Of a stretch of DNA of 64,000 nt, positions 40,030 through 44,188 are shown piece by piece; the first letter of the stretch is position 1, and every line of letters starts with the position of its first letter. A program made the position numbers and the translations under genes. The notes beneath the pieces were generated by a model. The model saw nothing but the letters and a program-made list of their open reading frames with translations, did not search any database and was not told the DNA's origin. The DNA comes from Salinirubellus salinus. GTDB lineage: Archaea; Halobacteriota; Halobacteria; Halobacteriales; Haloarculaceae. The DNA is taken from NCBI RefSeq assembly GCF_025231485.1, contig NZ_CP104003.1, positions 744,001 to 808,000 of the forward strand, written 5' to 3'.

Positions 40030-41271
40030 TCAGGCCGGGTCGAGCGCGAGGAGTCGCGAGGGACCGTCCGACGACTCGACGGCGGCGAACAGCGCACCGT
40101 CCGCGACGGCGATCCCGGCCGGCGATCCCTCGACACCGTGGCGGAACCGCCTCGCCTCGAGTCGAGTCCCGCCGACGCCGACCCCGCCACCGAGTTTGTA
40201 GCCGTCGACCGCGCCGCTCCGCCCGACGTAGAGCGTGTCGCCCGCCGCGACCGGACCGCAGGTGAAGTCCACGTCGTTCCCGACATCGACAGTCCACGCC
40301 GTCTTCCCCTCGTGGGTATCGAGCGCGTCGAGCGTGGCGAGGTTCGCCCCGTACACTCGCCCGTCGACGGCACAGAGCCCCTCCTGCAGGGTGCCGGACC
40401 GTGCGTTGGACCAGTCGGTCCGCCCGGCGTGGGCACCCCCCCGGAGCCTGACGGTGGGACCGCCGAACGTGCTGACGTAGGCGTCACCACCCCGGTCGAT
40501 GGCCATCGAGAGCACCTTCCCCCCGAGTTTCCGCCGCCACAGACCACGGGGACTGCCGCCGTCGTCGTACATCGCGTACACCTCGCCGGCGGACGTCCCG
40601 ACGTACGCTCGCTGGCCGAGCCCCCTGTCCGGGGCGTGGAGCGTGGTCACCTCCCCGAACAGGTCGTAGGTCCACTCGCTGTCCCCCTCGTCGTCGAGGA
40701 GCGTCAGTCGTCCACGCCGGTCGCCGACGAAGACGTAGGGGACGCTTCCGTCTTCGACCGGGAGCGGCGGCGCCGAGACCGGTCCCACGTCCGCGCGCCA
40801 CTGGACGCTCCCGTCCTCGACCGAGAGCGCGGCCAGTCCTCGCGCCTCGCGGAAGGTGGCGAACACGGTCCCGTCGCGGACCGCGGGCGAGTGGAACCAC
40901 GGCTGTCCTTCGACCTCCGGGGTGTAGCGCCACACCTCGTCGCCGCTCTCGGTGTCGTACGCGACCAGCGGACCCGCGGTGGGCAGGAGGACGAGCCCCT
41001 CGGCCACGACCGGTCGGTCCGTGATCCACGGGACCTCCGTCGCCCACCGCTGGCTCGTCCCGGACCGTGGGGCGAGGGCGTCCGGTGCGTAGGAGCGACC
41101 GGCGGGACCGTTGCCACGCTCCGGCCAGTCGGTCGAGTCGTCGGTGCCGGGTGCGGGGCCGGAGCCACCGACGCCGAGGCCGAGACAGCCAGCGCTCGCG
41201 CTCGCGGCCGTCAGGCCGGCGACGCCAGCCAGTAACTCGCGCCTGCGGATGGAGGGTCGTTTCGGGGACAT
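40030..41271 (-). CDS. PQQ-like beta-propeller Tat lipoprotein
   Basis: 413 residues. RRRELLAGVAGLTAASASAGC is a twin-arginine signal with lipobox SAGC (Cys29). The rest is a repeated WD/PQQ-type propeller, each blade ending in a tryptophan docking pattern (for example DTESGDEVWRYTPEV, SVEDGSVQWRADVG, DDEGDSEWTYDLFG, DTHEGKTAWTVDVG). Such proteins bind substrates or partners outside the cell, or act like BamB; no PQQ or enzymatic residue can be identified. Convergent with deoC. Confidence 0.9.
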   Translation of the reverse strand: MSPKRPSIRRRELLAGVAGLTAASASAGCLGLGVGGSGPAPGTDDSTDWPERGNGPAGRSYAPDALAPRSGTSQRWATEVPWITDRPVVAEGLVLLPTAGPLVAYDTESGDEVWRYTPEVEGQPWFHSPAVRDGTVFATFREARGLAALSVEDGSVQWRADVGPVSAPPLPVEDGSVPYVFVGDRRGRLTLLDDEGDSEWTYDLFGEVTTLHAPDRGLGQRAYVGTSAGEVYAMYDDGGSPRGLWRRKLGGKVLSMAIDRGGDAYVSTFGGPTVRLRGGAHAGRTDWSNARSGTLQEGLCAVDGRVYGANLATLDALDTHEGKTAWTVDVGNDVDFTCGPVAAGDTLYVGRSGAVDGYKLGGGVGVGGTRLEARRFRHGVEGSPAGIAVADGALFAAVESSDGPSRLLALDPA

Positions 41272-41361
41272 ACGCCCGATTCCACGCCTGTCGGGAGAAA
41301 GCCTTTGGGAGGGTCAAATCGCCCCCGTACTCTTTTGTCGGGACCTGTCGAACGCCGGGAC

Positions 41362-42414
41362 GTGCCTTCCAGACGAACGTTCCTCGCCGGCGTCACGGTC
41401 GGCGTGACCGGCCTCGCCGCCCCGGCGACCGCCCGCCCAGCCCTCGACCGCTCCGCCGCCACGACCGAACTCGACGTGCTCGGCGCCGTCGACACCGTCG
41501 CGGCGGTGAGCGAGCGCGTGACCGGGCACCTCGACCTCGCGGCGGTCGAGGCGCTCCGTGACGTCGACCTCGAATCGCTCGACCGCCGGACCGCCGCCGA
41601 CCTCGACCGGCGTCTCGCGCCGGTCCTCGGTCGCGGACCGGGGCGCGTCGCGGGTCTACGGACGCTCGCGGGTGCCCTCGACGCCGAGGCCGTCGCCGCC
41701 CGCCTCGCCACCGGTGTCGCCAGCGAGGGGACACGCCTCCTCGCGGACCTCGGCCCGACCACGGTGTCCACTCCCGACACGTCGTTCGACGCGGACGCCG
41801 TCACGGCCGTCTCAGTCACCGAGGGCGAACTCGGCGCCGTCGAGTCGTTCGCCCTCGGCGTGGACGTGGACGGTTCGTTCTGGGCGCGCGTGGACGGTGA
41901 CGGCGTCTCGGTCGCCGACGCGCGCGGCGTCCTCCGTGCGGTCGGTCTCCCCGCGTCCGTCGTCGACGGCCTGCCGCCAGTCGCCCGCGCCGAGTACGTG
42001 GAGTTCCACGGCTCTTTCGAGCGCACCGACGGCGAACAGCCGTTCGTCGTCGCGCTCCTGCTCGTCCTGCTGGCGGCCGTCGTCGGGACGTTCGTGCTCG
42101 GTATCGAGGGGGGCGGGGGCGGTGCCCCTCGTGTCCCACAGGTCGCCTTCGAGTACGAGTACGACTCGGGCGGCCCGGTCACCATCGTCCACACGGGCGG
42201 CGACCACGTGCCGTCCAGCGAACTGCTCGTCGAGTACACCACGGAGGGGCGGCGACGTGGCGAACGGTGGGCCGACGAGGACGGCGTGGTGCAGGCGGGC
42301 GACGACCACACCACCGTCCGCGCACCCGACCCGGGCACGGACCTCCGGGTCGTCTGGGAGAGCCCCGACGGCAGCACGAGCGCGACGCTGGGGCTGTTCA
42401 GGGTCCCCGAGTAG
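41362..42414 (+). CDS. Tat-signal protein with an internal type-IV-pilin-like segment
   Basis: 350 residues from GTG at 41362 ([20 protein letters not shown]), supported by a TATA-like TACTCTTTT 26-34 nt upstream. Residues 1-24 are a twin-arginine signal with cleavage at ATA|R. About 200 residues of helical, beta-poor sequence with no recognised family follow. Residues 227-248 are a hydrophobic helix ending [19 protein letters not shown]. The final 90 residues ([20 protein letters not shown], then [15 protein letters not shown]) match the haloarchaeal pilin C-terminal beta domain. There is no prepilin peptidase site before the helix. The combination is unusual. Confidence 0.75.
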
Positions 42415-42508: not shown

Positions 42509-44188
42509 ATGTTCGACGAAGACGACCTCGACGCCATCCGCGAGTCCGAGGAGCGGTGGACCGAGGAGACCTACGGCCCGACCGTCGAGCGGTTCGGGGA
42601 GCGAAAGGAGACGTTCACGACCGACACCGGAGGGCAGGAGGTAGAACCGCTCTACACCCCGGCCGACGTGGCCGACCTCGACTACGGGGAGGACCTCGGT
42701 AACCCCGCCGAGGAACCGTACACGCGCGGCGTCTACTCCACGATGTACCGCGGCCGGCTCTGGACGATGCGCCAGTACGCCGGGATGGGGACCGCGACGG
42801 AGACGAACGAACGGTTCCACTACCTGCTGGACGAGGGCCAGACCGGGCTCTCGATGGCGTTCGACCTCCCCACCCAGATGGGCTACGACTCCGACGCCAC
42901 GATGGCCGAAGGCGAGGTCGGGAAGTCGGGCGTCGCCATCGACTCGCTGGACGACTTCGAGACGGTGTTCGAAGGGATACCGCTGGACGAGGTCAGCACC
43001 TCGATGACCATCAACGCCCCCGCGAGCGTCCTGCTGGCGATGTACATCGCCGTCGGTGACCGACAGGGCGTCCCCCGCGAGGAACTCCGTGGGACCATCC
43101 AGAACGACATCCTGAAGGAGTACATCGCCCGGAACACCTACATCTTCCCGCCGGAGCCGTCGATGCGGCTCATCACGGACATCTTCGAGTTCTGCGCCGC
43201 GGAGACGCCCAACTTCAACACCATCTCCATCTCGGGGTACCACATCCGCGAGGCAGGGTCCACGGCCGCACAGGAGATCGCGTTCACGCTCGGCGACGGC
43301 ATCGAGTACGTCGAGGCCGCCATCGAGGCCGGGCAGGACGTCGACGAGTTCGCCCCCCAGCTGTCGTTCTTCTTCAACGCACACAACAACATCCTCGAGG
43401 AGGCGGCGAAGTTCCGAGCGGCCCGGCGGATGTGGGCCAGCATCATGGAGGAGCGCTTCGGCGCCGAACAGCCCGGCTCCAAGCAACTCAAGTTCCACAC
43501 ACAGACCGGTGGCTCTACCCTCACCGCCCAGCAGATCGAGAACAACGTGGTCCGCGTGGCGTACCAGGCGCTCGCCGCCGTCCTCGGCGGCACTCAGTCG
43601 CTCCACACCAACGGGAAGGACGAGGCGCTGTCGCTCCCCACCGAGCAGTCGGTACGGACCGCCCTGCGCACGCAGCAGATACTCGCCCACGAGTCCGGCG
43701 CGGCCGACACCATCGACCCGCTCGCCGGGAGCTACTACGTCGAGTCGCTCACGGACGAACTCGAGGCCGAGGCCCGCGAGATACTCGACGAGGTGGCCGA
43801 GCGCGGCGGGATGCGCGAGGCCGTGGAGTCCGGGTGGGTCCAGCGACAGATCCAGGACACCGCGTTCGACCGCCAGCAGGAGATCGAGACCGGCGAGCGC
43901 ATCATCGTCGGCGTCAACGAGTTCCAGGTCGAGGACGACGAGAAGGCCGAGGACATCGAGGAGGTCAGCGAGGCGGACGCCCGCCGGCAGCGCGAGTCGG
44001 TCGCACAGGTCCGCGAGGAACGCGACGAGCCGGCGGTCGACGCGGCGCTCGACGACCTCCACGCCGCCTGTGAGGGCGGCGAGAACGTGATGCCACACAT
44101 CGTCCGTGCGGTGAAGGCGTACGCGACCGTCGGCGAGATCTGCGACACGATGCGCGATTCGTTCGGCGAGTACCGAACCGGAGTCTGA
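42509..44188 (+). CDS. Methylmalonyl-CoA mutase, large-subunit catalytic part (no B12-binding domain)
   Basis: 559 residues from ATG at 42509. The substrate-binding TIM barrel contains [56 protein letters not shown] and [14 protein letters not shown], all mutase signatures. It ends after EYRTGV without the C-terminal cobalamin (DxHxxG) domain, which in archaea is a separate small protein not present here. It rearranges (R)-methylmalonyl-CoA to succinyl-CoA. The epimerase gene follows 440 nt later. Confidence 0.94.

Follow-up and report, generated by a model that had tools for sequence, protein, structure and literature searches.

Haloarchaeal type IV pilins normally leave the cell by Sec export, are processed by PibD and polymerise, and a lipid anchor is usual for most haloarchaeal Tat proteins. 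H. volcanii depends on the pilin H-domain both to form pili and to regulate motility within the membrane, an unrelated hydrophobic stretch cannot substitute for it, and G, A or S at position -1 appears to be required for prepilin cleavage (PMC4371748). Tat membrane proteins usually carry their helix at either end, and the characterised Tat tail-anchored proteins face the periplasm, their span being at the C-terminus (PMC10924467).

We analysed a window of 64,000 nucleotides (C1:744001-808000) from a haloarchaeal genome of 4.38 Mb in two contigs that shares its GTDB family with Haloglomus, and found in it a protein that combines parts of these systems. Like the haloarchaeal type IV adhesion pilins (8fj5; PF07790), the window protein has the helix motif AAVxGTFVLG and a beta-sandwich; unlike them, it lacks an N-terminal class III signal and a canonical prepilin site, and a Tat signal and a domain of 200 residues precede its helix, which begins at residue 227. 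A Tat signal followed by one later hydrophobic helix is shared with the Tat tail-anchored proteins, but the helix of those surveyed lies at most ~50 residues from the C-terminus (PMC10924467), whereas 103 residues, including a folded domain of 91, follow the helix here, which places the window protein outside that class. With the haloarchaeal Tat lipoproteins (PMC2945643) it would share Tat export and membrane anchoring at the surface, theirs being by lipid while the window protein, without a lipobox, would use its helix. The parts and their neighbours are as follows.

41362..42414, + strand: Tat-signal/pilin-module fusion gene (350 aa from a GTG; orthologous fusions in four genomes of the Haloglomus genus)
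41362..41436, + strand: Tat-type signal peptide, residues 1-25 (SRRTFL motif, ATA cleavage-like end, lipobox cysteine absent)
41437..42039, + strand: N-terminal domain, residues 26-226 (matches no known family; an alpha/beta subdomain at ~146-217 is predicted with confidence)
42028..42042, + strand: DGEQP, residues 223-227 (possible prepilin-site relic; DDEQP in Haloglomus, so the site is not conserved)
42040..42102, + strand: pilin-type hydrophobic helix, residues 227-247 (Pilin_N, predicted model, KD19 = 3.05, 17-19 of 21 residues identical to orthologs)
42103..42138, + strand: glycine-rich linker, residues 248-259 (longer in Haloglomus)
42139..42411, + strand: pilin beta-sandwich, residues 260-350 (pLDDT 94-98 for residues 261-350; match to 8fj5)
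40030..41271, - strand: divergent neighbour, a Tat lipoprotein with PQQ repeats (context only)
42509..44188, + strand: downstream neighbour, methylmalonyl-CoA mutase (context only; it adjoins the ortholog in genome G047 too)

Reading frame, Tat-type signal and N-terminal domain

The sequence-only reading had proposed a fusion of a Tat signal with an internal pilin-like domain and had named a frameshift between two adjacent genes as the finding that would overturn it. The fusion stands: ORF 41362-42414 is uninterrupted and encodes 350 aa from a GTG, with a Tat-type signal at one end and a pilin helix and beta-domain at the other. Its third-codon-position GC is 0.86-0.96 in each 50-codon block, and the entire ORF therefore appears to be coding in frame. 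A longer form could start from a TTG at 41305; the orthologs, however, start at the same MPSRR as the GTG form. A first search of genome contigs with the window protein alone as query returned no match. The same order of parts is present in four Haloglomus-genus genomes (G047-G050) at an overall identity of 40-46%, and the fusion is therefore not a frameshift of two genes. The window does have a GTG codon shortly before the helix, as a pilin with an internal start would need, but the frame is open and coding throughout, the same fusion recurs in four further genomes and neither G047 nor G049 has a start codon among the 35 codons that precede the helix end, so that an annotation artefact of either kind is vanishingly improbable and we regard it as ruled out. 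The ortholog in the draft genome G050 (L041:1814-2767) diverges over its last ~50 residues, probably through a frameshift or assembly error.

The N-terminus has the sequence pattern of a Tat substrate, a twin-arginine motif with a moderately hydrophobic stretch free of charges behind it (applied by hand rather than with TatFind itself): 19 uncharged residues follow the RR of SRRTFL, with a KD15 of 1.67. MPSRR is invariant in 5/5 proteins (the window protein and the four orthologs), and the Tat motif and signal are kept in all five. In the window protein and its closest orthologs the motif and long uncharged run come without a lipobox, and the lipobox cysteine of haloarchaeal Tat lipoproteins is absent from the window protein. 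We thus predict that it is exported by the Tat machinery.

Profile and sequence searches with residues 26-226 gave no credible match in Pfam, NCBIfam or the PDB, in keeping with the earlier description of a ~200-residue domain of unknown type. The weak matches of an alignment of this part in an order-wide search were long proteins resembling S1/DHH-domain enzymes, and inspection of the alignments led us to judge them composition-driven.

The pilin module and its conservation

The C-terminal module of the window protein, helix and beta-sandwich together, is homologous to haloarchaeal pilins. Pfam Pilin_N (PF07790) matches residues 233-294 (E 5.7e-8; score 33.9 bits, curated cut-off 25.2), residues 227-350 match the H. 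volcanii type IV pilus entry 8fj5 by phmmer (E 1.2e-12), and the predicted model matches 8fj5_A by Foldseek (E 6.1e-8). The pilin-like character claimed for residues 227-350 thus survives the absence of a significant match that had been set as its refutation. The Pilin_N match covers only profile positions 15-75 of 78 and, as it begins at position 15, the normal prepilin N-terminus is missing. The window helix almost matches the major-pilin motif VILAAVIGTFVLG; the host genome's own pilins have VILAAVIGTFVLGL at the helix stretch where the window protein has a variant sequence. Among the 15 Pilin_N matches in the host genome, only the window protein was found with a match starting deep inside the protein, and in the others, most of which were inspected, the helix lies near a plausible start. 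Instead of following directly on a short N-terminal class III signal, the window helix occupies residues 227-247.

The residues before the helix read D-G/E-Q in the window protein versus D-D/E-Q in three Haloglomus-genus orthologs. Judged from the residues rather than with FlaFind, and taking G, A or S at -1 with a usually charged -2 as the mark of a prepilin peptidase site, we recognise no canonical site in the window protein, a still poorer match in the orthologs and no site that is conserved, from which we infer that the protein cannot mature and assemble as an ordinary pilin. The earlier suggestion of a surface-structure adapter gains no support from this non-canonical site or from the genomic setting: T2SSE-type (pilus/secretion ATPase) genes are absent within 300 kb of the gene in the host genome (the nearest are ~320 kb and ~820 kb off), and its neighbours, encoding the PQQ-repeat lipoprotein and methylmalonyl-CoA mutase, provide no link to a pilus locus.

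Conservation is unevenly distributed along the protein. Between the window protein and the Haloglomus orthologs, identity is 81-90% in the helix (17-19/21), 39-52% in the beta-domain (31-47 of 80-90 residues) and 29-42% in the N-domain (37-42% over residues 26-141, 29-34% over 142-226). The corresponding dN values are 0.05-0.07, 0.46-0.48 and 0.63-0.80, with dS at 0.55-0.95, and in the comparison of G047 with G048 dN is below dS in both halves. Six further membrane segments, serving as controls for the same pair of genera, were 29-95% identical, mostly ~50% (one further candidate control protein has no Haloglomus ortholog). One of the six reached 90-95%, and the window helix is therefore unusually, but not uniquely, conserved. 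On these comparisons, its strong conservation suggests that it may be more than a generic anchor.

Other Tat proteins with pilin modules

No description of the architecture was found in the open-access full text searched, which agrees with the sequence-only reading in calling it unfamiliar; it is not a one-off, however, since other genera carry a helix and beta-domain module behind Tat lipoprotein domains. Five Tat lipoproteins from three genera (g2, g14 and g22) of the same GTDB family (L078, L079, L080, L081 and L089) consist of an RR signal with a lipobox, a ~280-residue domain, a pilin helix and a pilin beta-domain, and two more (L099 and L103) have a weak helix. They are like the window protein in their Tat-type N-terminus, N-domain, pilin helix and beta-domain, and their module is homologous to that of the window protein (hhalign 99.5%, E 5e-23); they differ from it in their lipobox cysteine, in an unrelated N-domain resembling TP0453 and in a less hydrophobic helix. 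Homology between the two N-domains was rejected (hhalign probability <1%, no profile support), the similar order of strands and helices in the second half of the window N-domain being suggestive only. The lipoprotein-fusion N-domain (L089:5243-6586, L079:4437-5735, L081:4336-5667) has a Foldseek match to the Treponema lipoprotein TP0453 (3k8j; E 5.6e-7 with the L079 model).

In an order-wide search of 392 genomes, which scored four candidates per genome so that its counts are lower bounds, the full-length relatives of these fusions listed were all from the same GTDB family (at least 9 genomes), and their N-domain without a pilin module was widespread in Halobacteriales, including one copy in the host genome. 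A tree of this N-domain places the helix-bearing fusions and the weak-helix pair in one clade (support 0.93) and two helix-less beta-domain fusions elsewhere. The best 19-residue hydrophobicity means are 2.46, 2.2, 2.16, 1.88 and 1.85 for the helix-bearing lipoprotein fusions, 1.35 and 1.31 for the weak-helix pair and 1.13 and 0.63 for the helix-less pair. By the same measure (KD19) the window helix reaches 3.05 versus 2.99 for the host genome's own pilin helix, while every lipidated fusion measured stays at or below 2.46. Haloglomus (L042, L043), genus g16 (L082-L084) and the host genome itself (L008) contain additional Tat lipoproteins in which the beta-domain comes without a helix.

Pilin modules have thus been joined to Tat-type proteins several times; by this reading there would have been at least three fusion events, giving rise to the window/Haloglomus proteins, the helix-bearing lipoproteins and the helix-less pair. 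The window architecture is real and conserved, one of several captures of pilin modules by Tat-type proteins, and its parts are known. Such repeated capture points to a function of the module outside pili, and the fusions amount to natural experiments on the helix as anchor, docking part or ballast, with some lipidated versions having a weak helix or none and the non-lipidated one a strong helix.

Membrane topology and competing readings

We favour, with a probability of roughly 0.55, the reading that the window protein is a Tat-exported, non-lipidated surface protein that acquired a type IV pilin through the fusion of genes. The Tat machinery would export the folded N-domain and signal peptidase would remove the signal; the pilin helix would stay in the membrane, taking the place of the lipid anchor, and the beta-sandwich would most naturally act as an accessory interaction domain of a membrane-held surface protein. 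The window helix, more hydrophobic than those of all lipidated fusions measured, fits a sole anchor here, and the contrast between weaker helices in lipidated and a strong one in non-lipidated proteins would fit an anchor role, with one lineage on the non-lipidated side. A membrane-held Tat-exported protein is most likely, more so than a pilus subunit. What sits poorly with an extracellular interaction domain is that a membrane span following a Tat-exported part would keep the beta-domain on the cytoplasmic side, the reverse of its position in pilins, a conflict that the sequence-only reading did not raise; in the helix-less Tat-lipoprotein relatives the beta-domain is presumably outside.

This geometry is taken at face value by the possible, though clearly less probable, reading of a two-sided membrane protein, in which the N-domain is exported by Tat, transfer ends at the helix and the beta-domain is cytoplasmic and inverted relative to pilins. 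A Tat substrate with one later span adopts this topology by default, as in the tail-anchored proteins of the periplasmic face (PMC10924467), and the strongly hydrophobic helix of ~20 residues is conserved. Yet described Tat membrane proteins have a terminal helix, with 103 residues following it here, Tat lipoproteins that have no helix share the beta-domain and presumably expose it outside, so that an inverted one would need a new role, and the charges flanking the helix show no topology bias as read from the sequence. The orientation native to the beta-domain would be restored if the RR signal went unused, the N-domain stayed cytoplasmic and the helix served as a Sec signal-anchor with the beta-domain outside, where PibD may cut G224/E225 given that D223-G224/E225-Q226-P227 resembles a degenerate prepilin site; conservation of the Tat motif and signal in all five proteins and a D at -1 in Haloglomus, where G, A or S appears required (PMC4371748), make this very unlikely.

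The helix might instead keep pilin-specific membrane contacts, the protein binding pilins or H-domain binders and so modulating pili or motility. That conservation of the helix far exceeds that of the remainder, that its sequence comes near the major-pilin motif, that a glycine-rich linker separates it from the beta-domain and that the H. volcanii H-domain has a role in pili and motility in which it is not replaceable (PMC4371748) all speak for such contacts; we nonetheless hold them unlikely, as the gene has no genomic link to pili, a Tat-inserted helix would run antiparallel to pilin helices and one control helix is equally conserved. We also regard as doubtful a broader proposition, that haloarchaea use the pilin helix as a transferable, specific membrane part which in this family came to lie behind a Tat signal and has stayed under strong selection because it still contacts pilin helices or their partners, so that the protein would be a non-polymerising pilin mimic delivered by Tat and tuning pili or motility, or else that the protein is two-sided with an inverted cytoplasmic pilin domain. 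For Tat membrane insertion, the window protein poses the question of whether a helix in the middle of a protein halts transfer so that a folded domain remains inside the cell. Its interest lies mainly in the fact that topology and selection on the helix are directly testable.

Several other proteins with pilin-type features came to light. A prokaryotic-virus protein family of unknown function, PHROG 20722, matches the window pilin module (E 3.9e-7), and a similar module is therefore present in some virus proteins. The host genome encodes a 762-aa protein (L044:10605-12893, ~C1:2148605-2150893) with an N-terminal pilin-type start and a long C-terminal region that by eye resembles two LamG-type repeats, and further large pilin-start proteins at C1:1689480, 1084794 and 2515805. 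Genomes of genus g3 (L023, L025, L027, L029 and L036) encode pilin-module proteins of ~153 aa, in which a hydrophobic stretch of ~36 residues follows after ~20 residues; without an evident prepilin site, these represent another non-canonical pilin-like type.
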